DNA of 64,000 nt, taken from Ascochyta rabiei. Taxonomy: Eukaryota; Ascomycota; Dothideomycetes; Pleosporales; Didymellaceae. The position numbers were made by a program, and so were the translations under genes. The notes under the pieces were generated by a model. That model had not been told where the DNA came from. It ran no database searches and was given only the letters and a program-made list of their open reading frames with translations. Below, one piece after another: positions 1-14,420 of this stretch. The stretch lies in assembly GCF_004011695.2 (NCBI RefSeq), contig NC_082426.1:1-64000 (forward strand), written 5' to 3'. The stretch's first letter is position 1; each line of letters starts with the position of its first letter.

Positions 1-103
1 TAACCCTAACCCTAACCCTAACCCTAACCCTAACCCTAACCCTAACCCTAACCCTAACCCTAACCCTAACCCTAACCCTAACCCTAACCCTAACCCTAAC
101 CCT
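1..103. repeat. Telomeric repeat tract (CCCTAA)n
   Basis: About 17 perfect copies of CCCTAA read 5'->3' on the + strand, so the G-rich TTAGGG strand is the minus strand and the physical chromosome end lies to the left of base 1. The perfect array stops at about base 103, where it passes without a unique boundary into degenerate sequence that keeps isolated CCCTAA units. This is the standard telomere unit of filamentous ascomycetes. Confidence 0.98.
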
Positions 104-3100
104 CTTCCTACACTAAAACCCTAACACTTACTCTTACACTTTCTCTTCTTTACTCCTACTTTCTTTCTTCCTTCTTCTAACCCTTACTCTTACACCCTCT
201 CCTACTTCTAAACCCTCCCTCTTCCTTACCTTTACTTACACTTACTACTCCTTTTACACTCATCTCTACTCTTTCTCTTTTACCTCTACTCTTCTCTTCT
301 TTCTCTTCTTTTCTCTTACCCTACCCTCTTTCCATACACTAAAACCCTAAACCTTACTCTTACTTACACTCTCTTCTACTTTCACCTTAACCTCTTTTTT
401 CTTACTCTTTCTTAACTCCTTCTTCTTAACTCTTTTTCTCTATCTTTTTCTTATCTCTTTTCTTTTTACTCTTAACACTTACCTTCTCCTACCTACCTCT
501 TTTTAACTCCTTACTCTCTTCTTCACCTTACACTTACCTTCTTTTTCCTTCTTTACAACTCTAAAACCTCCTTCCTTCTTTTTTTCTTTTCCTACTCTTT
601 CCACTTACTTCTCTCTACTAACCTCTTTTCTAACACTAAAACCCTAACACTCTTCTTACTCTAAAACCCTAACCCTTTTCTCTACTACTACTACTTCTAC
701 CTCTACTCCCTTTTTCCCTTTTCTTTTCTTTTCCTCTACTCTTTTCTATTCTTTCTTCTACTTTTCCTTCTATCCTTACTTCTCTTTCTACTACTACTTT
801 TACTCTTACTTTCTTTTTCTTACTTTCTTCACACTCTACTTTACTTTTCTTCCCTCTCTTCTATTTTCACCTCCTTCTCTTCTACCCTTTTTTTCCCCAA
901 CCCTTAAACTCCTCTAACTCTTCTTTCTAACTTAACCCTACCCCTTACCCTTACACTCTTCTTCTTTAACTCTCTTACTCTCTTTCTCCCTCACCCCTAC
1001 ATTTTCTCCCTCTTTTTCACCTTCACTTCTACTCTCTTCTTCTTAATTCTTCTTCTTAACTCTCCTTCTCTTTCTACTTTTTTACTCCTAACACTTACTT
1101 CCTTCTACTTACTTTTTTTCACCTCTTACTTTCTTCTTTAACCTACACTCACCTTCTCCTTCTTTTTCTAAAACTTTACTACAAAACTCTCTTTCTTCTT
1201 TTTTCCTTTTCTCACCTTTCTTTTCCTCAACCTTTACCTACTCTTCCTACACCAAAACCCTAACACTTTTCCTACACTAAAACCCTAACCCTTTTACAAT
1301 CTAAACTCCTTCTCTACTACTACCTCTTCTACTACTTCTACTACTTCTTTTCTCTTTTTACTTATTACCTCTACTTTCTTCTCCTTTTTCCTACTTTCTT
1401 AACTCTTAAACACTACTTTTTCTTTAACTTATTCTACTTCTTCCTTCTCTTTCTTCTACTCTTTTCTACCACTTACTACATCTTTCTCTTTTCTTCTACT
1501 TTTACTTAAAACCCCAACCCTCTTCCTACACTAAAACCCTTATACTTACTCTTACACTCTTCTTTATTCTTACATTAAAACCTTTACACTTTCTCTTCCT
1601 TATCCCTACTTTCTTCCTTCTTCTAATCTTTACTCTCTACTTCTCTCCTTAACTCTTCCTCTTACACTCTACCCTCTCTTACTCTTAAATTCTTCTTTCC
1701 TCCTACTTTCTCTCCCTCACCCTTACCTTTACTTCTACTTATTTCTACTTTCACCCTCTTCTCTACTCTCTCTTTCCTACCTCTACTCTTCTCTTACACT
1801 TAAACCTTACTCCTTACTTTTACTTACACTCTTACCTCTACCTCTTCTCTTTCCACACTCTCTCCTACTTTAACCCTAACCTCTCTTCTTACACTAAAAC
1901 CCTAACCCTCTTTTTACTCTAAAACCCTAACCCTTACACTTATTCTCTCCTTCTTCCTTACTCTACTCTCTTCCTTACTTTACTCTTCTCTTTATTCTAC
2001 TCTCTCCTACTTCTTCTTCTCTTATCTTTTTCTTCCCTCTACTCTTCTACTCACAATACCTATTCTCTAATCCTTACTACTTTTCTCTATCCTTTCTACT
2101 TTTCTTATCCTTTCTACTTCCCTTATCCTTTCCTTTCCTTACTCTACTACTCCTAATCTTCTCTACTTTTTAATAATCTTTCTTTAAACTACTACTCTTT
2201 CTTTTCCTATTCTCCTTCTTCTCTCTTTTTTAAAACTTTAAATTTTACTCTTCTAACTTTTCTCCAAACCCTATCTCTCTTCTCACACTAAAACCTAACT
2301 ATTACTATTACTTTCTTCTCTACTTTCTCTCACTCTATTCCTTACCTTCTTCCTAACACATACACTTACTTTCTCACTTACCCTCTCTCTATCTTACTTA
2401 TTCTCTTTCTACCTTTCTCTTCTCTCTCTAATTTTTTACTCCTAATACTTACTCTCTTCTTCTTATCTTTTCTACTCATCTTTTCCACTTACTTTTCTCT
2501 ACTACTCTCTTTTCTAACACCTTAACTTTCTTCCTTCTCTCTTTACACCTATATTTACTCTTTACTCTATCTTTTACTCTACTAACTTAATTTTTTTTAC
2601 TTTTCTCTCTAAAATTACACTTTCTTCCTATACTAATATTCCCACCTTTATCCTTACACCTTCTTTCTCTTACTCTTACTTCTTCTCCTACACTTAACCC
2701 CTACTCTTCTCTTTTATTCTTACTCTCTTTCTTACAACTTACTTTCTTTATTTTTTAAAACCTTCTACTTTTATCTCTCTTTTTAACCTTCTTCTCTCTT
2801 CTTTTCTTTTATTTACACTACTTTTACTTCTTACCCTACTAACTTTTCTTTTCTAAACTTATACTCTCTTTCTATACTAACACCTACCTATTATTCTTAC
2901 TCTCTTCTTAACCTACTTTACTCTCTTATCTTTCTTTCTTAAACATTATTTTCTTCTTAACTAACCTCTTTTAACTTCTTTTCCTTTTCTTCTACTTCTT
3001 TCTTCTATCCTTACCTCTTACTTTCTTTACTCTATTCTTATTCTTTCTACTTTTCTAAATTTTCTTCTCAATCTCTCTCTTCTTTCTATCTCTTATCTCT

Positions 3101-3697
3101 TTCCCTAAACTCTTTATAAACTCTTTAAACATATACTCTCTACTTTTTACTTCTTTTTATACCTTTTCTCTTCTTTTCTCCTTATTTACTTCTTCCTCAA
3201 CCTTTTTAAATTTCTAACAAACTACAACTTTCCTTTTTACTTTACTTTTTCCTTTCCTTCCTCTTTCTACACTTTTTCTCTTCAACCTTCTTTCTTTTCT
3301 CAACTTTTACTCTTTCTAATCTTTCTTTTCTTTTCACCTTCTATTTAACTACTCTTTTATTTCATACATCTTTTAATAAACTAACTTCTTCTTCTACTTT
3401 CTTCTCTTCTTTTAATTCTTTCTTTTCATCTTTCTCTATTTTCTACTCTTTTTTCTTCATTTACTATCTTTACATCTTAATCACTTTAAATATCTTTTCT
3501 AATACTTTTACACTCTCTCTTTATTAAATACTACATTTAACTATCTTTTCTATCCTACTAACACTCTTTTAACAATTTTTTACCTTTTTCTACTTCTCTT
3601 CTTACTTTATCCTCTCTACTATTCTCTTCTCTTAACAATTCTTTCATTTCTCTTTTCTTTCCTTTTCTTCTTTTATACATCTCTTAACCCTATCTCT
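104..3697. repeat. Telomere-derived degenerate subtelomere with no G on the + strand
   Basis: The first G on the + strand is at base 3698, so about 3.6 kb after the perfect telomere is built only of C, T and A. The sequence is a C/T-rich mosaic of words such as CTTCTT, TACTCTT and ACTAAAACCCTAAC. Scattered CCCTAA units persist (near 111, 337, 633, 1274, 1530 and 1888), often inside the recurring word CACTAAAACCC, which suggests a higher-order repeat of several hundred bases. No gene is present. Towards 2-3.6 kb the CCCTAA words fade and the DNA becomes more T-rich. A GTA-only complement is what a telomerase-type template without G could write, but the mechanism is inference. Confidence 0.9.
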
Positions 3698-5055
3698 GCT
3701 ACTTGCGCGCTGTTATACTGCTGCATGAACAACGCTACTCTAATTGCTACTACCATTGCGTTGCTGAAAAAATTCGCCTTAAAACCGCTCTCTGTACCGC
3801 TTATCTATCTCTACAACTGCCTCTTCACTCTTGTGTAACACTTGACGGGCCTACCGCCCACCCACTTTCTCTTCTTCACCCTGCTTACCTGCTACTCTTC
3901 TCTATCCCGCTTCACGGTCTTAAACACCTCCCCTCCTTCACTCTTAACCGCATCGCTCCGGGGGCACATCCACGGGCCCCCGCCCAACCCTCTACCCCCT
4001 CTCCCGTGATACCTTATCACGGGCCCACCGCCCACCCTTATTCTACTCTCTTCTCTCCTTCATCCTTTGCTCGTGATGCCTTATCACGGCCCCACCCACC
4101 TCCCCTCTTTCTCCTTTACCCTCTACCGCCCTGCCCAACTGCTTTGTGACACCTGACGGGCCCTCCGCCCGCCCCTCTCTCACGCACTACGGCATCTACG
4201 GGTTCAGGAATGCCTTTCTGGGCTGCGGCACCACAATCGGATTTGCCAAACTTCCCTAACTACTGTTCTATCTTGTGACAATACTATGTAAACGCCCAAA
4301 ACACCTTGCTCCACGTCATTTTTATCCCGTTCCATCTTTCTAATCCACCTGATACCCTGTTCAAATGCCCTTTCCCTCTACCATTTATTCTTATACCCGA
4401 TTTACAAAGCAACCAACCCTGCCTAATCCAAATTCGCGCGATCAACGCGATTGACGCCCTCTTGCACGAACAACTTCTTGTACCTCTCCCATCCACCATC
4501 CTGCTGGCTCTTCTACCTATTGCGCATGTCTTTCTTAACTACTCTACTATCTATCCAAATTTACTTTGTCCTGACTCTTACTTTCTTCAATACGCACGGC
4601 TGCTTTTAGATAGGGACTCACTTGGTTTGGTCTGCTCTCTCCGGATTGTGGGCTCTTCCTGGATCGGGGGCTCTTCTTAAATGATCGGCTCTTACTACTT
4701 GGGGGCACTGATGTGGACTCCTTGGCTTGCAGGGACCACTTTCGGGCCACTTTGGGGGACTACTTTCGGACCACTTAGGGTGGCGCACTACTTGGCGCGC
4801 TACTTAGGGAACCACGTGGGGAACTACTTGGGAACCACTTGGATTGGGGGACCTACTCGGGTTGGACGTGCCACTCGGGTGGGGCAACCACTTGGGTTGA
4901 CGCACTACTTGTGGAACTACTCAGGGAACCACGCGGGTTTGTGCTGACTACGCGGCTTGATGCTGACCATGTGACTATGTGGATTGATGCTTACTGCGCG
5001 GGTTAATGCTTACTACGCGGGTTAATGCTGACTATGCGGGTTGGTGCTGACTACG
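3698..5055. repeat. GC-rich subtelomeric mosaic, module A
   Basis: Composition switches abruptly at 3698 from G-free DNA to GC-rich DNA. The block holds several copies of a short hairpin motif of the type CGTGATACCTTATCACGG followed by GGGCCCACCGCCCACC (near 4003 and 4070, with degenerate versions near 3835 and 4146). It also has a unique-looking segment around 4190-4310 that recurs at 14130-14255. From about 4680 the + strand becomes G/T-rich with words such as CTACTTGGG. Small open frames here are not gene-like: they are repeat translations without recognisable domains. The same order of segments recurs in module B about 9-10 kb further in. Confidence 0.75.
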
Positions 5056-5300
5056 TGGATTGGGGGATCCGCATGGGTTGGGGGCTCTACTTGGGTCGGG
5101 GGCTCTACTTGGGTTGGGGGCTCTACTTGGGTCGGGGGCTCTACTTGGGTTGGGGGATCCGCATGGGTTGGGGGCTCTACTTGGGTTGGGGGTTCTACTT
5201 GAGTTGGGGGATCCGCATGGGTTGGGGGCTCTACTTGGGTTGGGGGCTCTACTTGGGTTGGCGGGTATCACTCAGGTTGGCGGGTATCACTCGGGTTGTG
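5056..5300. repeat. G-rich 18-bp tandem array, module A
   Basis: Roughly 11 tandem copies of an 18-bp unit, TTGGGTTGGGGGCTCTAC, with variants containing GGGTCGGGGG or GGATCCGCATGGG. Runs of three to five G on the + strand recur every few bases, so this strand could form G-quadruplexes. That is the opposite strand from the telomeric G-strand at this chromosome end. The array ends about 190 bp before the stop codon of the helicase gene. Confidence 0.88.
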
Positions 5301-5492
5301 GGGACTACTTTGGTCGGTGGCCCTTCTCTGGGCGTTTCTTTCTACGTCTCTGAAGTGTCTGTGTTGCTATTTGGCTGTTTTGCACTTTCTGACTTGTGAT
5401 CACCGTGCAGTCGCAAGTCAGCCTACAGCACGTTTCTCCTGACTTCTCCTGACCTAAGGTTTCGGGTTACGGTTATATCAAACACATTCTTT

Positions 5493-8153
5493 CTAGTCTG
5501 CTAAATACGACTGCACATGCCCCTCCTCCCAAGCATATAGGAAACGACACATCTGGCTCGCGTCTCTCTGGCCCATCTTGATCTTTAATCCGAGCCACTT
5601 GTAAAGCCGGAGCTCATCGCTACCGTGCACAATCGCGGCGTCTTGCATCTGCTGCTCCAGCCATGGCGTGCACATCAGTGGCTGGCAGGCAAGCAGCGCA
5701 GCTACTGCTCTCTGGAGCACTCCATCGTACTGGCAAGGCACATGCATCCCTTGTGTCTTAAACGCACCCTGTATGCTTGTTTCCTCCCACTTGTTGCAGA
5801 TGGCTTGGGGCGCCCAGCAGTAAAAACACCGCGCATACTTCTCCCACTTCACTTGGTGCATAGATTTCACCTTAGACTCCATTAATGTCATCTGCGCTCC
5901 GCTGGCCTTTGAACAGTCCTTCCAGTCGTGGCGCGCCGGGTCAGCCTGAGTGGCCATGCAGATGGCGCACGCATTGCTCCAGCGCTGGAAGTGCTGCTCT
6001 AGCCGCTCCAGGTCATATACTTTTTGTTCCGTCCTTCGCCGTTGCCGGATCTTAACCCTCTGCTCTTTAACGACTATAGCTCGCTCTATACATCTGCGCT
6101 GCTCCTCTGCTGCCACTGCCGCAGTGTCGGCCTGCGTCTCCTCTGGCTCTTCCTGCTCTTCTTCGACGGCTTGTCGCTTGGTACCACCGGGGTGTCGCTC
6201 GCATAGATCACACTTCGACTCTCCCATCTCGCATTGCTGCCTGTTCTGTCTGCCGTCCATGTGCTTGTCTATCGCGATTCGCCGACAGGATTCGACTGTC
6301 ATAAACTCCTTTGCAGGTCGCTCCAGCTTGTAGCCGAGCGCCTTCTCTACCCTCCCCTCTTTTGTTACATAGCACGCTCTCATAACAATAGACTCGCTGT
6401 CGAGCCCCGTTCGTCCCGCCCGGCCGCTCTCTTGCACATATTGGAGCAGCAGGGGACACATGGCAACGTGGATCACCACCCAGACGCCTGCAGCGTCGAG
6501 CCTAAGACCTAGCATGTTCGTGGCTGTACAAAGCTTCTCTATGCCCAGGGTGAAGCTTCGCACCATGCGTGCCTTTTCCTCGTCTGAGCCCATCTGACGG
6601 TAGTATGCAGAGCACTGCAGAAGCTTCGCAAGCCGTTTCGTCTCGTCCACAGTTGGACAATAGACGATGATCTGCGCCTTAGGTCCGTACCTACTCCTCT
6701 TCGCAGCCACAAGCTCAATAAGTACTTTTTCTAGCGTGCCACGTGTGTACTCTAGCACCTGGTACGCAATGTTCGTTCGCGTGGTGCGTTCATCGCGGCA
6801 TATGGTTACGGTCTGGGCATCGAGCCCTGCGGTGTGCAAGAAGGCGGGCTGCAGCGTGGGCGGCAAGGTTGCAGTCAGGTAGACAACCTGTGTGCCCTTC
6901 TCCGTCATCTCCACCATCTTGAGGAGGTCTGGCCGCCAGTCCTGTGTCGACTCCAGCAGCACGTGGCACTCGTCTATCACGATACGATCTAGCTGATGGA
7001 GCATGCGCTTTTCGTCAATAAACCTGCCGAACGCCTTCGTGACTGCGCTCTTAGGCGTCACCAGCACAATACGAGCCCAGTACGGCGGTCTTCTTCCATC
7101 CCACTTCGCGCAGGGGATGCCGAGCTGGTCGCAGCGATCTTGCAGATCGTCTCGCAAGGCATTCAACGGAGCCACGACCACGGAGACGCCGCCTGGCGAG
7201 ACGGACGCGGGCAGCATGAACAGCATACTCTTGCCGGTGCCGGTAGCCATAACAACTAGCACGCGCAGCCGTCGCTGCATCACAGCCTCAAGGCTTTCTT
7301 CTTGCTTGCCACGATACTCGGCGTCCGGCCGTCCAGCGAGTCGCCTGAACTCTGCCTTGAGGTCCACCATCGCGAGCGACGACCAGCGCTGGAGCGCCTG
7401 CTTCTCTTGCTGCGCTACCATCTCCGCGCGAACACCGGGGTGCATGCGGCCGTCCTCCCAGGCGGATGCAAACTCCAGCACGCGATGCCAGTCCATGCTC
7501 ACCCGCCGGAACTCCTCCCGCTCGGCCATGGTCTGAAAGGGAGACTCCATCATGGAGCGGCCGTAGTTGCCCTCCTCTGTTTTAAGGCTGTGGCCGGACT
7601 GCAACGCTTGCGCGTTGCTCTTCGCCGGCGCTTTGTTCCAGTAGAGCACTTCCAACCAGTCGCGTGCTTGTCCATCTCTTGCCAGCTCTCGGTGGATGGC
7701 TGGGTAGGCATGCCGCCAGGCGCGGGTGCCGAGAGCGGTGTTCATGTACTGAAAGGTCTGCTCGCGCAGGACACGGCGTATGCGATCGGTGCCCCAGTAC
7801 CCGTCTGGGTTAGCGGATCGTGCCTTCTCACGGTCGGCTTCGCCGTACTCGTCTCCGTCGTCGCTCTCTTCGCTATCGCTCTCGTCGCCCCACTGCTCCT
7901 CCGGCTCTGGCTCCCAGATGAAAGCGGTAGGGCGGGCAACGCCATTGTGCAGCATCTGGAGATCATCTATGAACGGTCGACCGAGCCTGAGGAAGTACAC
8001 CACCAGCTCACCCACCTCCCAGGGAACATAGCGGTGGATCGTCTTGACACGCTTGCTGAAGCTATACCCCTTGTGGTACGTGGTGGTGAAGGATACCAGG
8101 CCACCCTCTACAAACACCCCCGATACCCCACCCCGTCTGCACTGTTCTCGCAC
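5493..8153 (-). CDS. Telomere-linked RecQ-type helicase, C-terminal part (helicase core)
   Basis: This is an 886-codon frame holding the helicase half of a subtelomeric fungal helicase. Visible motifs, in residues of this frame: motif I ATGTGKS (~303-309), motif II DECH (394-397), motif III TAT (427-429) and motif VI QESGRAGRTG (~574-583). A RecQ-like Cys cluster follows, and a C-terminal Cys-rich region (CAIC, CFYC) as in telomere-linked helicases. Motif V reads NMLGLRLD where the family usually has ALGLGID, so activity may be reduced. The first ~60 residues (HKGY, HRYVPWEVGEL) continue the conserved block that starts in the neighbouring frame at 8108-10102, so the two are one gene broken by a shift of one frame near 8110-8150. 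Homologues sit at chromosome ends in many fungi; a role in telomere maintenance or recombination is inferred from the family. No ATG precedes this frame, which supports the frameshift reading. Confidence 0.85.
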   Translation of the reverse strand: MREQCRRGGVSGVFVEGGLVSFTTTYHKGYSFSKRVKTIHRYVPWEVGELVVYFLRLGRPFIDDLQMLHNGVARPTAFIWEPEPEEQWGDESDSEESDDGDEYGEADREKARSANPDGYWGTDRIRRVLREQTFQYMNTALGTRAWRHAYPAIHRELARDGQARDWLEVLYWNKAPAKSNAQALQSGHSLKTEEGNYGRSMMESPFQTMAEREEFRRVSMDWHRVLEFASAWEDGRMHPGVRAEMVAQQEKQALQRWSSLAMVDLKAEFRRLAGRPDAEYRGKQEESLEAVMQRRLRVLVVMATGTGKSMLFMLPASVSPGGVSVVVAPLNALRDDLQDRCDQLGIPCAKWDGRRPPYWARIVLVTPKSAVTKAFGRFIDEKRMLHQLDRIVIDECHVLLESTQDWRPDLLKMVEMTEKGTQVVYLTATLPPTLQPAFLHTAGLDAQTVTICRDERTTRTNIAYQVLEYTRGTLEKVLIELVAAKRSRYGPKAQIIVYCPTVDETKRLAKLLQCSAYYRQMGSDEEKARMVRSFTLGIEKLCTATNMLGLRLDAAGVWVVIHVAMCPLLLQYVQESGRAGRTGLDSESIVMRACYVTKEGRVEKALGYKLERPAKEFMTVESCRRIAIDKHMDGRQNRQQCEMGESKCDLCERHPGGTKRQAVEEEQEEPEETQADTAAVAAEEQRRCIERAIVVKEQRVKIRQRRRTEQKVYDLERLEQHFQRWSNACAICMATQADPARHDWKDCSKASGAQMTLMESKVKSMHQVKWEKYARCFYCWAPQAICNKWEETSIQGAFKTQGMHVPCQYDGVLQRAVAALLACQPLMCTPWLEQQMQDAAIVHGSDELRLYKWLGLKIKMGQRDASQMCRFLYAWEEGHVQSYLAD

Positions 8154-10102
8154 TGTATCGAGGTAATCTCTGTCCCGCGACCAGGCCCGCCGCCAGACAT
8201 GTGAACAAGCGTGAAGAGGCCTTCTTTAAACCGACGCACTCCTTTCATGTACCTAGCTACAGCGTCATCGCGCCATAGCGTCCGTTCCGGCCGTTGTGTG
8301 CTATCTATCCCACGAATGAATCTCTCCCTTAGCGGAGCCTCGTCCAACACCCGGTCTAGAAGCCAGTCTTGCCATCTATCTAGCTGGTTGTTAGGGTGCT
8401 TCAGAAAGCTCCAGCCCGTAGCCAGCTCGGCTGGCTGATCGACGAGTTTGTCCACGGACACCTCTGGAAGCGGGGTGGTCCCGGGTCGCACGCAACCCCT
8501 TTCGTCTAGATCCAAGAGTAGGACGTCCTTGAATAGCTGCAACCGCACCGTCTCGCAGAGTCCCTTCACCATCGACCGGAGATCGGCTAGCGAAAAGCTC
8601 TGCTTGTCAATGAGAAGCCGATCTCCATCCCACGACACGATACCGGGAGTATTACGTCGCTTTGCCTGTGTTCTAGCTAGCGTACGCAAGCGGAGCATTC
8701 GATTCATAGGACTGGGTGTGCCTTTGAAGTCGGACAGCGTCATAAACCGTTCAGACATGTCTTTAACTAGCTCATACGCAGTAGGTGCTGTACAAGGGTC
8801 TTTCTGAAGCGCTTTATCTCGCTGGCAGCGGGCATGATGCACTACGAGCGCTTTCGAGGTAGTGATCAAAGCAGACAGCGTTGGCGAGAACTCGTGCGCC
8901 GGAACCCACCCACCGCCATGGTGATCAGGCTTGAGGCCGAGGACAGCCACTCCGCTCAGCAGTGCGCTCTCGTGCTCGTCGCCAGTCAGGCTGTGGTTGA
9001 GCAAGGCGATCCAAAAGCGCAGGCATCGCTCTTCCAGTTTCTCTTTCTTCGCAGCGTCGTCTGAGCGGGCTATTTGCTGGAGTGACACCAAGAGGGCGTC
9101 TTGCGTGCTGGTAAGTTTGTATGGCGGCCGCTCGACCTGGTCATATGTGCGCCACAGGTAGCAGAGGATGCTCACCAGCTTCTGGCTGTACTTCTTGATC
9201 GTACCGACTCGATGCCTAGCGTAGAAGGGCCGCTCGTTCGATTCTGCGCCCGCCTCACGTCGCTCGATAATCTCCAGTGCGAGTCTGCCGACAACCTCAG
9301 CTCGGCTGCTATCGAACGCTTTTTGTATCAGCCGCTCTATAGCTTTGCAAACATCGCGTAAGCCCGTGTTGTCAAACGCCACTTCTTCCTTCCCACGCGC
9401 GTCTACCTCCCCACCAGCTAGCTGTTTAGCGCGCAGAAGTGCCGCCCTTGGGATACCTTGTAGGTGCGGGACCCATTCTGTGAGCTCTAGCCACGGATCA
9501 GCCTGCGAACGGATGCCCTCTTTAATCTTATCCTGCGCTGCTGCTGCCTCACGCTCTTCTCGCTGATGCTGGCGATCTGCCTTCACTCTCTGGGAGATGT
9601 CTGCTAGAGTCGCAGCTCCAACGCTCGTCTCGACTGCAACATACGCCGGCCAGCCAACAGCTCTAAACAAGCGCTGGCAGGATTGGCTGTCTCGCCATAC
9701 TCGGTTGCGCGAGTGCTTGCTCTTTTGCCTTATATCTCCCCCTCGCTTTTGTTCGTTCACCCAGCCATGCTCATCCTTGCAATGTTTCTGCATGCCCTGC
9801 AGCGAGATGCAGGTATACCAACAACGCTCCGACAAGCATACCAGCCCGTCTTCTCGGCTTTTCAGACCAAAGACGGGCTCCTTAGCCGGCCTTGGTACAC
9901 GCACGTCTCCTGGACTCCACGCAAGGTTTGGTAGCGCGCGTACAGCTGCCGCCAGGCTCTTGCGCGTAGCGACTGTGACCTTGGGATGGCGCTCTTTGAG
10001 GTGCGTAACGATCTGCGCTGGTGGAATAGCGGTGGCACATGGTTTACAAACTACGACTCGAAGTTCAGGCCGGTGTTTAAACAGCTGCGCAAATAGTTCC
10101 AT
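8108..10102 (-). CDS. Telomere-linked helicase, N-terminal part (OrsD-like zinc region)
   Basis: A 664-codon frame starting at the ATG at 10102. Near the N-terminus are two zinc-finger-like clusters: CKPC followed by H-x4-H (residues ~19-40), and CLSERC...H...H (~88-113). This arrangement belongs to the OrsD/DUF3505 domain that precedes RecQ-type helicases in fungi. A Lys/Glu-rich coiled region follows, then a long alpha-helical region, and the frame ends just after the conserved HMSGGGPGRGTE block. It then runs into a stop within a G-rich stretch, while the reading continues one frame away in the helicase half (5493-8153). Together they would give about 1,530 residues, a normal length for this family. 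The gene is divergent from the gene at 10399, with about 300 bp between start codons. It may be intact if the frameshift is an assembly error. Confidence 0.82.
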   Translation of the reverse strand: MELFAQLFKHRPELRVVVCKPCATAIPPAQIVTHLKERHPKVTVATRKSLAAAVRALPNLAWSPGDVRVPRPAKEPVFGLKSREDGLVCLSERCWYTCISLQGMQKHCKDEHGWVNEQKRGGDIRQKSKHSRNRVWRDSQSCQRLFRAVGWPAYVAVETSVGAATLADISQRVKADRQHQREEREAAAAQDKIKEGIRSQADPWLELTEWVPHLQGIPRAALLRAKQLAGGEVDARGKEEVAFDNTGLRDVCKAIERLIQKAFDSSRAEVVGRLALEIIERREAGAESNERPFYARHRVGTIKKYSQKLVSILCYLWRTYDQVERPPYKLTSTQDALLVSLQQIARSDDAAKKEKLEERCLRFWIALLNHSLTGDEHESALLSGVAVLGLKPDHHGGGWVPAHEFSPTLSALITTSKALVVHHARCQRDKALQKDPCTAPTAYELVKDMSERFMTLSDFKGTPSPMNRMLRLRTLARTQAKRRNTPGIVSWDGDRLLIDKQSFSLADLRSMVKGLCETVRLQLFKDVLLLDLDERGCVRPGTTPLPEVSVDKLVDQPAELATGWSFLKHPNNQLDRWQDWLLDRVLDEAPLRERFIRGIDSTQRPERTLWRDDAVARYMKGVRRFKEGLFTLVHMSGGGPGRGTEITSIQCENSADGVGYRGCL

Positions 10103-10398: not shown

Positions 10399-12123
10399 AT
10401 GCACTGGTTGGCAGCATTAGACAGCGCCGCAGAGCGGTTTGATGGCGGTCGTCGGAGCTTTCCTCTGGCCAGCGAAGCTGACTTCGTTCGCAACTACGCG
10501 TACGAGCCGCCGAATGAGGACTACGAGAAGCTCTTCTTCTGCCGAGCGACCATCTCACGCTCGCAGCGTGATCCAGGTGCTCGTCCGCACAGCGCAGGAT
10601 GGCTGATCCCCACCCGTGACGATGCCAGCGTCTGCAAGCCCGTCTTCATTGCCCACTCCGTCTTGTCAGCGATCTGGCTTCTGCGCGAGACGCTCGCCGA
10701 CGACGTCCTGCCTGACAATATCTGGGATCGTCTGGTCTGCGCGGCCGAGTCGCTTGCGGAGGACGGGATGGAAGAGCCGCCGTCTGCGCAGAAGCCCTTT
10801 GCTTCCCCTTCACAACAGGCCTCCGCTCCACCCCCGCAACAAAAGAAGCGGCCACACCTATCTGCGCCGGCCCCTACACCAAAGCGCGCTCGAACAACCA
10901 CCGATGAGACACATCCAGCCAGCCCTCAGCTGTCACAGCCTAGCGAACCAGATGAGCAGCTGAAAGACTCCCCTCTGCACATCACTACCATCTCCAACAA
11001 CAACCGCCGTGCGGAGCAAAAACGCAGCAGGACACTCGCCACTTCGCGTGCGAAGAAGCGGCTTGCCCTTGGTCTGGTAGCACCTGGCGACAAGGCTCCT
11101 CTTCCAGAGCAGGCTGCCTACACCTCTATTGTGCAAAAGGACAAGTCCGTTGTCGCCTGGATCATTAAGCAGCCGGTCTCCGATGACACGGACTTCTACA
11201 GCTCCACCCAAACTCCCTACCTTACGGCCTGCACCCTTCTAGAGAAAGCGCGCGTGCTTGGAAACCAGTCCTCTCGGTACCACGCTGCCCAGTTCCTGCA
11301 GGCTTGGCGAGAACGTGGCTCACCCTTCAGAGGTGGCGGCGAGCTCGCTGGCAGCCAGAGCAGGACCGGTGCGGGAGCTAAGCGCTTGCAGCTGCTAAGT
11401 GTGCGCAACGATGCTGACAGGGATTTCTGCTTTGCCTGGAACATGTGCACACGTTACGAAGCAGAGCTAGCAGCTGTCTATATCAAGTCTTGATGGGCGT
11501 CAGCTCTCCTAGGTCAAGCATACTCTAACAAGATAGCGCAGATCCGGCATAACGACTTTGTATCTAGCAACGACAGGACGCGAAATCGATACGGAAAGGG
11601 ACAGATCCGCACAGAGGCAGTTGCAGCGCTAGTAGAGTTAGTTAGTCCCAACGCCACTAAGAAGGACAAGCAGGTGTTTAGACGACGGTTAGGCCAAGCC
11701 ATGCGCTGGTACTCCATTAGTCAGGAGCTAGGCTGGGGCATTCTGACCCTGATACCACACGACGAGATTGCGAATCGCTGGATAGAACGCACCCTCCGTG
11801 TAGGCCAGCTGCATGTCTGGATTGAGCTACTTAAGAAGGAGTGTCCAGACATTTGTGCAGCTAGCAAGGCACTTGAGAACTGGTTAGGGCCAGAGGGAAT
11901 TGCTGGCGGGCCCATCAACGAGAAGAAAACGCTGAGCATTGAGGCGGAGGCGCCAGCAACCATCTACGAGGTGGAAGAGATTCAAGACAGCGAAGACGAC
12001 GAAACTGACAACAGCGTTGACGACAGCACCAGAGAGCAAAGTCATGCTTCGCCGAAGAGTCCTACGCCAGCTCCGCGGTTGCGTCAGCTAACTTTGCTTG
12101 AATTGTTCCATCCTGTAGAGTAG
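10399..12123 (+). CDS. Two-exon subtelomeric protein of unknown function, nuclear-looking
   Basis: Exon 1 is 10399-11475 and exon 2 11542-12123. The 66-nt intron begins GTCTAT, has a CTAAC branch site 12 nt before the acceptor and ends GCGCAG; joining keeps the frame and gives about 552 residues. I do not recognise the family. The N-terminal ~125 residues look folded. A Pro/Gln-rich linker with a bipartite-type basic signal (KKRPHLS...PKRARTT) follows, then a second basic patch (QKRSRTLATSRAKKR). The C-terminal part holds a Trp-rich helical region (AMRWYSISQELGWGILTLIP) and an acidic Ser/Asp tract (residues EIQDSEDDE onward). The protein ends in RQLTLLELFHPVE, which resembles a PCNA-interacting (PIP) box. 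The gene is divergent to the telomere-linked helicase, so nuclear or telomeric action is a reasonable guess, not a demonstrated role. No nonsense codon is seen, unlike the nearby repeats. Confidence 0.7.
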
Positions 12124-12439: not shown

Positions 12440-12740
12440 GAGTTCTACTACTCCTAACCCTTCTCTATTCTTTATTAATTTTTCTTTAATCTATTACTCT
12501 TTCTTTTACTATTTACCTTTGTCTCTCTTTTCTAATACTTTAAATTTTACTCTTCTACTTTTTTTAAACTCCTACTCTCTTCTCATATTAAAACCCTAAC
12601 TAATAATACCATTACTTTCTTATCTCTTAATTTTCTTTTATACTATTTTTTTTATTATTTCTATCTTCCCCTACTTATAAACAACTCTTAACTCTATTTC
12701 TTTTTACTTAACTACTACTATGCTTTTTTTCTTCTTTGTT
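12440..12740. repeat. Internal copy of the G-free telomere-derived satellite
   Basis: About 300 bp with almost no G on the + strand. It lines up by eye with 2150-2330 of the terminal G-free region: both share, in the same order, words equivalent to CTACTCTTTCTTTTC, TTTAAATTTTACTCTTCT, TCTCTTCTCA and AAAACC(C)TAACTA. It sits directly left of module B, as the terminal G-free DNA sits left of module A, and so marks a former chromosome end or a duplicated end segment. Confidence 0.75.
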
Positions 12741-14420
12741 TTCTTTTTCCTTACTACTATTACTACGCCACTGTCTTTTTCTCTCTCTTCTGTTCCGCTC
12801 CGCGGTCTTAACCACCTTCCCTCCTTTACTCTCTTCTGTTCCGCTCCGCGGTCTCAACCACCTTCCCTCCTTCACTCTTAACCGCTCCGCTCTGGGGGCA
12901 CATCCACAGGCCCCTCCGCCCACCCCTCTTTCTCCCTTACCCTCTTCTCCTTAACTACTATTTCCTTTCTCCTTCTTTTACTTTCAACTTAATACTTACC
13001 TTTCCTATCATCAACTTTCCCTTTCCTCCTCTCTGCTTTCTTGTGACACCTGACGGGCCTACTATCTACCCCCCTCTTGCGCGTCACGGTCTTTTTGGTT
13101 TACGGGCGCGTCTCCCTACCGCTTAATATGCCCTATGCACTCTCGGACAGGTTTCCGTCATACCCTCTACTAGTTGCCGGCCTGCAAATGCAGGTAACCC
13201 TAACCCTAACCTTGACCTGTGTCTGGTCCTGAACCCAACTTCACTTATCTAACGTCTTTGTTACGCTTACTCTCTTGTGACGCCTTACAGGCCCCCTACC
13301 GGTTCTTCTCCCCTAAACGCTGTCTTAATCATTTCCACGGCTTAATGCTGTGCTCTTCTGCTTTTAATAACTGATCTGCTTGCTCTGTTAACCTTCTCGC
13401 GGTTACAGGGCCTTTTACGGGCTGTTTGCTGTCGTCTCTTACTGGTCATAGGTCATGCTCTGTAACTGCCCGCCTTCCCTCCCTCTCCACCCTTTCGCCT
13501 TTCTCCAACGGTCTCGACCACGCTTCCGTTGACGCTTGCTGCACTCTCGGACGGACGGGTATCTGCTACACCCCTGTTACGCGTCACTAACGCACTGGTT
13601 ACGGGGGCCTCTTCACGGGTTACGGACCTCTCTACGGGCTTGGGGGCACCTCTACGGGTTGTACGCCTTACTGTCAGCCTCTTCTTGCTCTGTGCTATTG
13701 TTAACTACTTCGCTCGGCGTCCTTGTAATACATTATCACGGCTTACCTCTCTACTGCTTTGCTATGTTAACCTCTCGATGATACCTCATCATGGCTTCGT
13801 CGCCTACCTCTTCTCTTTTCTCAACTGCTGCGCTTCTTGTGCCTCCCTACGGGCCTTCCGCCCACCCCTTCTACTTCACTGCTGCGCTCAGCTTCTTTGT
13901 GACACCTTACGGGCCCACCTCCCACCCTCTTCTCCCTTCTTCTTAACAACCCTCTCTTAAAACACCCACGGGCCCACTGCCCACCCCTTCTTCTACCCTC
14001 TTCTCTCCCTCATCCTTTGCTCGTGATACTTTATCACGGCCCACCCACCTCCCCTCTTTCTCCTTTACCCTCTACCCGCCCTGCCCAACAGCTTTGTGAC
14101 GCCTTGCGGGCCCACCGTTCACCCTTCTCTTACGCACTACGGCATCTACAGGCTTAGGAATGCCTTTCTGGCTGCGGCACCACAATCAGGTTTGCCAAAC
14201 TTCCCCTAACTACTGTTCTATCTTGTAACAATACTCTCTAAACGCCCAAAACACCTTTTTAAATGCCTCCTCCTCTCTACATCTTACTTTTCCCTAATTT
14301 TCGTTGTCTTAATCCTGCGCTTTCTTTTTAATACAAACGGCTGCTTTAGGTTAGGGACTTACTTGCTTTTAGGTGCTCTTCCTGGTTTGCGGGCTCTTTC
14401 TGGGCTGTGCGCTGTTCTTA
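12741..14420. repeat. GC-rich subtelomeric mosaic, module B
   Basis: This is the diverged counterpart of module A. Shared blocks include the GGGGGCACATCCAC region (3960 and 12893), the CCTCTACC(C)GCCCTGCCCAAC region (4120 and 14070), and the ACGGCATCTAC...GGAATGCCTTTCTGG block (4189 and 14143). It is longer than module A and contains additional hairpin copies (near 13042, 13274, 13720, 13780, 13890, 14020 and 14093). Open frames inside are repeat-derived and show no domain. Confidence 0.75.
13195..13212. repeat. Interstitial telomeric repeat, three CCCTAA units
   Basis: TAACCCTAACCCTAACC lies between a TGCAAATGCA palindrome-like word and unique sequence, 13 kb from the end, in the same orientation as the terminal telomere. 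It is short, but its place inside the duplicated subtelomere module fits a relic of an earlier end or of a telomere-mediated joining. Confidence 0.85.

Follow-up and report, generated by a model that had tools for sequence, protein, structure and literature searches.

Telomeric DNA commonly has one G-poor strand, and this bias may be required at chromosome ends or may be no more than a consequence of the telomerase template. The chromosome ends of budding yeast carry repeated, helicase-bearing Y' elements, which sometimes stand in tandem. Work on the telomeric retrotransposons of Drosophila has raised the idea that telomeres require a certain base composition (PMC5537684), slippage and exchange have been proposed as the cause of the degenerate telomeric repeats of Arabidopsis (PMC11406999), and a report on fungal subtelomeres with telomere-linked helicase (TLH) genes notes such genes in Ascochyta rabiei (PMC11893274). 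Here we describe, in this agent of chickpea blight (Dothideomycetes, Pleosporales), the left end of contig NC_082426.1 (assembly GCF_004011695.2), analysed as a window of 64,000 nucleotides (positions 1 to 64,000 of the forward strand), in which the telomere is followed by 3.6 kb of DNA without a single G on one strand. The same tract recurs at most chromosome ends, where it forms the distal end of a repeated element that bears helicase ORFs, and we suggest that it is probably an old, degenerate telomeric array.

A three-letter tract inside the telomere

The window opens with three features, the boundary between the second and third being approximate:

1..103, plus strand: canonical telomere, C-strand (CCCTAA)n, 17 units, 100% matches
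104..2500, plus strand: outer G-free tract, degenerate telomeric-type repeats with a 6-base rhythm, CCCTAA words and a higher-order repeat of about 620 bp
2501..3697, plus strand: inner G-free tract, T-A-C grammar kept, hexamer signal lost, C down and T up

An earlier sequence-only reading of this DNA placed the first G of the plus strand at position 3698, and we confirm that positions 1–3697 contain none. That reading also held that the absence could not be due to chance, which is out of the question given that the window overall is 24% G (15,553 nucleotides); the second-longest G-free run of the window measures 200 bases, and lies within a remnant of a like tract at 12,443–12,721. The composition of 19 full-length tracts is 49% T, 32% C and 18% A, and at all ends bearing the tract the G-free strand runs 5' to 3' from telomere to centromere. 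The tract (104–3697) appears to be non-coding, as its longest open reading frame (ORF) has only 40 amino acids, on the minus strand, with none above that length; a coding function fits badly, and the earlier suggestion of selection for a protein is not supported. The G-free strand contains no ATG, GTG or TTG, so no ORF with such starts can open there.

Distribution over chromosome ends

The assembly comprises 22 chromosomes and thus 44 ends, of which 43 are readable; the left end of C4 (C4_L; right ends are marked R) reads as N and is excluded from every count, and the 55-kb contig C23, with no telomeric repeat at the end examined, was treated as non-nuclear. Telomeric repeats open all 43 readable ends, and at 37 of them the canonical telomere could be measured, giving 47–123 bp. 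There is no G within the first 400 bases at 39 ends, and C18_L carries a truncated, G-poor form (five G in 400 bases, seven in 715). A check set beforehand, namely whether other ends lack such tracts, thus found a G-free or G-poor tract at 40 of the 43 ends; at the other three (C19_L, C8_R and C17_R) ordinary DNA lies directly inside the telomere.

Fifteen left ends carry the tract at full length, 14 of them with no G before the first at 3,648–3,707, and the fifteenth, C14_L, with a single G at 3,446. Four of the five right ends examined to 4 kb are G-free for 3,686–3,702 bases, and the fifth, C4_R, has two G before base 3,678. The right ends of C6–C12 and C15–C22 were examined over 400 bases, that of C14 over 1,757 and that of C13 over 892, and full tract lengths at these briefly examined ends (C6–C22) are taken from pattern positions. 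The 19 aligned full-length tracts together contain one G in 68,368 bases.

Searches of the whole genome place the tract near chromosome ends. The sequence at its inner junction has 32 perfect matches, 16 per strand and all less than 4 kb from an end, and no further match at up to three mismatches, while the start of the outer tract has 67 matches (at most three mismatches, second internal matches included), all within 15 kb of an end. A few inner copies of the tract lie 12–14 kb from the end (C2, C10 and C15), in addition to the remnant in the window, and the tract is therefore the distal end of an element able to stand in tandem, as the helicase-bearing Y' elements of budding yeast sometimes do.

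Telomeric signal within the tract

Autocorrelation at lag 6 reaches 0.114 for A and 0.083 for C (standard error 0.017), with lesser peaks at 12, 18, 24 and 30, and the values for A at lags 6, 18 and 24 exceed all Markov simulations (200 each of order 1, 3 and 4). Exact rotations of CCCTAA number 73, compared to 21.9 expected (maximum 40 in 300 simulations), and near-tandem hexamers are in excess at lags 6, 12 and 18 (178, 154 and 135, compared to 72–75 expected), with no clear excess at nine other lags tested (slight at lag 10). The lag-6 peak persists (0.089) after masking of all hexamers within one mismatch of CCCTAA, and among 116 tandem hexamers of A, C and T it is CCCTAA that shows the greatest excess in the two outer thirds (2.6 and 3.4 standard deviations, 12 simulations). 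A higher-order repeat of about 600–650 bases is evident from 61 word pairs, compared to 12 expected.

The signal fades inward, with values for A at lag 6 of 0.215, 0.199, 0.096 and −0.051 in successive stretches of 900 bases, and this is the behaviour expected of an ageing array. Exact telomeric hexamers number 24, 16, 8, 13, 3 and 4 in successive stretches of 600 bases. The last third keeps the T-A-C order that is normal in CCCTAA (CA 0.51, AT 0.51 and AC 1.68 of expectation); with the hexamer signal gone from the inner 1.2 kb, it is this neighbouring grammar only that argues for a telomeric origin there. Like a degenerate telomeric array, the tract adjoins a canonical telomere, has a 6-base rhythm in its outer 2.4 kb and decays increasingly inward; unlike an array with rhythm throughout, it has lost it over the inner 1.2 kb. 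The sequence-only reading had described most of the tract as A/G-rich words on the complementary strand and not TTAGGG, which needs correction, since the outer two thirds retain the telomeric rhythm. The link that it drew to telomerase-type DNA is supported for the outer 2.4 kb (rhythm and CCCTAA excess).

Repeat-induced point mutation and recent variation

Substitutions were compared across 15 left ends for the flank and 19 ends for the tract, or across ten copies, with nine sites near gaps set aside in the tract and 14 in the flank. The 6-kb flank contains 433 sites that vary among the 15 left ends, 401 of which are of the class attributable to repeat-induced point mutation (RIP), that is, C/T before a purine or the complement of this. 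On the plus strand C>T changes affect 22% of CpA and 26% of CpG, and on the other strand 21% and 20%, compared to about 1% or less at CpT and CpC. C>T change at C-purine sites of both strands is thus characteristic of the flank, and is hardly seen in the outer tract. In the flank at 3698–9700, RIP affects CpG about as often as CpA.

The strand-biased deamination proposed in the earlier reading is not borne out, as both strands of the 6-kb flank carry RIP-type changes (205 C>T, 176 G>A) and, per target site, there is no significant difference between them in the first 1.5 kb (22/89 compared to 16/77, then 17/66 compared to 40/109; P 0.18); in the bins farther in that do show a strand difference, targets on the plus strand were changed more. 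Per base, G is variable at 58 of 327 sites in this first 1.5 kb and C at 42 of 479, an excess that goes with target density, since the strands show no significant difference when counted per C-purine site. Some copies are unequal between strands (C7_L has 87 C>T and 44 G>A).

The tract itself has 100 RIP targets on one strand and none on the other, and its CpA frequency is 0.47 of expectation. Of its 55 C-purine sites in the outer 1.8 kb none varies, and of the 45 in the inner 1.8 kb four do, whereas 8–37% vary per 300-base bin of the flank; this gradual rise across the junction points to distance from the end (through copying or protection) more than to composition alone. Among the 15 left ends the tract shows five RIP-class sites, including the single A-to-G change and one site in a slippage-like cluster of C8_L, and a further seven clean sites, six of them C/T differences that without exception fall in two clusters, of C8_L and C14_L, that look like the result of slippage.

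The helicase-bearing element

The tract is the telomere-side end of a subtelomeric element that is repeated and has RecQ/OrsD helicase ORFs; in the window its first copy is followed by a second, inner one:

3698..5400, plus strand: part of the element changed by RIP, including a minisatellite and no listed ORF of at least 230 amino acids
5051..5261: G-rich 18-bp minisatellite
5493..8153, minus strand: RecQ-type (telomere-linked) helicase ORF with DEAD and Helicase_C domains, pointing to the telomere
8108..10102, minus strand: overlapping upstream ORF with an OrsD domain
12443..12721, plus strand: older, truncated copy of the G-free tract with one G in 279 bases, which begins the second, inner element
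13198..13209, plus strand: interstitial telomeric repeat inside the second element

The RecQ-type and OrsD ORFs probably belong to one gene. Three ORFs of the element were scanned, of which the third (10399–11493) gave no Pfam match. Neither the tract nor these three ORFs contain the reverse transcriptase gene that would mark a telomeric retrotransposon, and the element resembles those of TLH type in having a predicted RecQ-like helicase gene in repeated DNA adjacent to the telomere. Among named proteins those nearest to the helicase belong to A. rabiei, and relatives of the helicase protein are present in other fungi. There was no relative in the viral contigs scanned, and in 12 viral contigs chosen for a shared 16-base telomeric word the parts examined have no G-free run of more than 68 bases. 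The remnant at 12,443–12,721 is 99% identical to the copy at C11_L and 97% identical to that at C12_L. The minisatellite has runs of five G on the plus strand, so that strand asymmetry flips less than 1.5 kb from the G-free tract.

The ends without the tract differ in what lies inside the telomere. At C19_L (locus L027) the telomere is joined, from base 90, to the inside of the element's G-rich minisatellite, without a G-free tract, and this end is probably a healed break. C8_R (L056) has a telomere and then other DNA, with 47 G in 400 bases. At C17_R (L064) the telomere sits on DNA which, judged by eye, resembles that just past the interstitial repeat at 13,198–13,209, and the two together suggest a former end or a preferred site of healing, and also that chromosome ends have been broken, healed and extended over time.

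Origin and persistence of the G-free strand

On balance, and with considerable reserve, we think it probable that the tract is an ancient degenerate telomeric array, which inherited a G-free alphabet and has been spared G by the spectrum of RIP together with copying between ends. The starting point would be telomerase-made DNA, the C-strand of which has no G, as is directly visible in positions 1–103. Such an array would have become the distal end of the repeated, helicase-bearing element and been copied between ends. Ageing inward, it may have been broken up into other words of the same three letters through slippage, unequal exchange and point changes, and since slippage and exchange cannot add a letter, the alphabet would be inherited. 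RIP, the dominant recent mutation nearby (C:G to T:A at C-purine), would keep G out, because on a G-free strand it can only turn C into T and so cannot write G; this spectrum is that of the flank, and we infer its bearing on the tract. The outermost 2–3 kb may have spread and been homogenised between ends, and an occasional new G would be lost as the copies bearing it are replaced. The low variation of the outer tract is an observation, and it is the age of the array, recombination and the common origin of the inner third that we infer.

Several results weigh against this reading. In the inner 1.2 kb there is no hexamer signal, and CCCTAA ranks 76th of the 116 hexamers. Over the tract, autocorrelation at lags 12 and 30 stays within the highest Markov simulations, CCCTAA shows no excess once a single mismatch is allowed (53, compared to 37.9 expected and a maximum of 61), and in the test of 116 hexamers relatives of CCCTAA follow closely, some with more standard deviations. 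A cyclic profile (hidden Markov) model did not pick period 6; in the outer half period 5 had the best Bayesian information criterion and a first-order Markov chain fitted better, a failure that we take to reflect many insertions and deletions. The lag-6 signal is present in the diverged copies C11_L (0.151) and C4_R (0.125), but is weak in C6_L (0.030) and C15_int (0.043). Small insertions and deletions are similarly dense in tract (44 in 3.6 kb) and flank (85 in 6 kb), and faster slippage in the tract is therefore not supported. Clean non-RIP differences are moderately fewer in the tract (7) than in the flank (18), and those that involve G number none in the tract and four in the 6-kb flank. 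As the expectation for the tract is at most 2.4, and less if only changes creating G are counted, the recent changes can be explained without a bar to G but are compatible with one. The sole G of the aligned tracts follows C, a context which our filter files as RIP-class.

The evidence from the diverged copies points both ways. Ten copies are clear (the window tract and nine others), with pairwise identities of 78–99%, and lower for some pairs that include the window remnant. Their T/C differences are not in RIP context and so were not made by RIP. Under a loose filter, with changes polarised by clade, A>G occurred at 4 of 106 A sites (0.038) compared to T>C at 45 of 269 T sites (0.167), a rate that predicts about 18 A>G changes where four were seen and hints at something beyond inheritance. 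Under a strict flanking filter the gap is gone (A>G 2 of 106, with about three expected; T>C 7 of 269), and the candidate explanation of strict G avoidance in diverged copies is thereby weakened. A pairwise set with six clean bases on each side yielded 69 distinct C/T and three A/G differences, where strand symmetry predicts roughly 13 A/G if half of the 69 are T>C. In favour of an alphabet retained through divergence, G is involved in 3 of 134 isolated differences between the tract and ten other copies, compared to 64 of 138 in the flanks (shared differences recounted), and the ten-copy alignment has 12 columns with G compared to 125 with C and T only. These figures may reflect a modest shortage of G, fourfold or so at most, or else an excess of C/T differences from slippage. 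There is no absolute bar, as G does arise in diverged copies: their G-poor stretches contain 28 G (about 21 with shared ones counted once), of which 27 follow C or T and one follows A (20 of the approximately 21 non-redundant).

The main rival reading, possible although we think it rather unlikely, is that the strand bias has itself been selected, in that chromosome ends need or favour a G-rich strand without C for kilobases beyond the telomere and G is removed as harmful. The exposed strand ending in 3' might have to be unable to fold by G:C pairs, or a purine-rich transcript without C, which would start at the helicase gene, cross the tract and enter the telomere, might form telomeric RNA or R-loops. 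Zero G across 3.6 kb, including 1.2 kb without telomeric words, is what would be expected if the bias matters, and the same strand polarity at left and right ends, the orientation of the helicase ORFs to the telomere, the lower rate of A>G than of T>C in the loosely filtered set and the count of clean non-RIP changes of G (none in the tract, four in the flank) all fit, as does the G-poor strand shared by the Drosophila telomeric retrotransposons (PMC5537684). However, three of the 43 ends carry telomeres without the tract, which is therefore not essential. G has moreover arisen and persisted in diverged copies (28, about 21 non-redundant; seven in 715 bases at C18_L), the one G of the youngest set is among very few real point changes, and A>G is not depleted under the strict filter. 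We regard as still less likely an origin in a pyrimidine-rich satellite unrelated to telomeres, G-free by chance, which acquired its telomeric words when it recombined with the telomere next to it. While the TC-rich bulk of the tract (T 49%, C 32%, A 18%), its top raw hexamer (ACTCTT, not CCCTAA), the repeat of about 620 bp and the lack of hexamer signal in the inner third, as well as the scarcity of it in two diverged copies, would suit a satellite, the outer 1.8 kb has a strong 6-base rhythm, which persists under masking and grows toward the telomere, it is CCCTAA that has the greatest excess over composition, and a foreign origin gives no reason for the absence of G on the telomeric C-strand.

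That G was actively purged, whether through RIP or through deamination in a single-stranded G-rich overhang, seems to us highly improbable. In favour of it, the element is heavily marked by RIP, which also affects the complement of TG and CG, the tract has less CpA than expected (0.47 of expectation), the polarity is that expected of deamination of the overhang (where C to U would read as G to A on the strand shown), and in the flank's first 1.5 kb G varied more often per base than C did (58/327 compared to 42/479). However, a G that follows A would escape RIP, whereas 27 of 28 G follow C or T; CpA sites of the outer tract have hardly changed, and per C-purine site there is no significant strand difference near the tract. 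We attach similarly little weight to a variant or slippery telomerase template which, instead of a plain CUAACCCUAA-type one, writes or once wrote words of T, A and G. The grammar of the G-strand, T-runs followed by purine runs, and the hexamer rhythm are compatible with this, and templates for longer or variable repeats have been reported in aspergilli (PMC3603654), but the terminal repeats are pure TTAGGG, and many ends share one long text with little internal repetition, which was therefore copied and not freshly written. Least credible of all is that a long true telomere has been misread in assembly or base calling. Nanopore sequencing is subject to a real, strand-specific error that calls CCCTAA as CTTCTT (PMC9414165), and CTTCTT occurs 46 times in the tract, though without any run of (CTTCTT)2 or longer. 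The neighbouring canonical telomere was read correctly, the same long text is found at many ends in both orientations, and diverged copies carry shared, inherited differences. An older PacBio assembly, of isolate ArME14, is reported to have telomeres of about 100 bp (PMC7341154), consistent with the 47–123 bp found here.

Comparison with known systems

If the tract is indeed a degenerate telomeric array, it is DNA that telomerase no longer writes and a third of which no longer has telomeric words, and the bias is nevertheless complete in the common form and nearly complete in diverged copies. It may therefore help to show why telomeric DNA keeps a one-sided base composition. Should selection prove to be the cause, A. 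rabiei would be the third and most extreme case of strand bias, after telomerase repeats and the Drosophila retrotransposons. A side effect of the G-free strand is that it offers few RIP targets, and multi-copy DNA of this kind would have a simple route to survival as a repeat under RIP.

The Arabidopsis telomere atlas describes canonical, then variant, then degenerate repeats inward from the end, with higher-order repeats and fragments common to several ends (PMC11406999), all of which are shared with A. rabiei. Unlike those arrays, the A. rabiei tract is 3.6 kb long with one text at many ends, in its common form uses strictly three letters on one strand, and is joined to a helicase element. 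The subtelomeres with TLH genes reported in Metarhizium, Ustilago and Magnaporthe likewise have a RecQ-type helicase gene in repeated subtelomeric DNA, and differ as far as that account goes in that a G-free distal tract is mentioned for A. rabiei here only (PMC11893274). The sequence-only reading knew of no described subtelomere with this property; in the open-licence literature, to which our survey was confined, this holds for fungi, for which no description of a G-free subtelomere turned up, but needs qualification for Drosophila. There the strand of HeT-A, TART and TAHRE that runs 5' to 3' toward the centromere is reported to be extremely G-poor, like that of telomerase repeats (PMC5537684), and it is the same strand as in A. 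rabiei. The Drosophila elements are retrotransposons that form telomeres without telomerase, whereas the A. rabiei tract appears non-coding, lies beside a telomere of telomerase type and lacks G altogether where theirs is scarce. Degenerate arrays and helicase-bearing subtelomeres were thus already known, and what is new in A. rabiei is their combination in a text of several kilobases, probably of telomeric descent and common to many ends, that keeps strictly to three letters on one strand.

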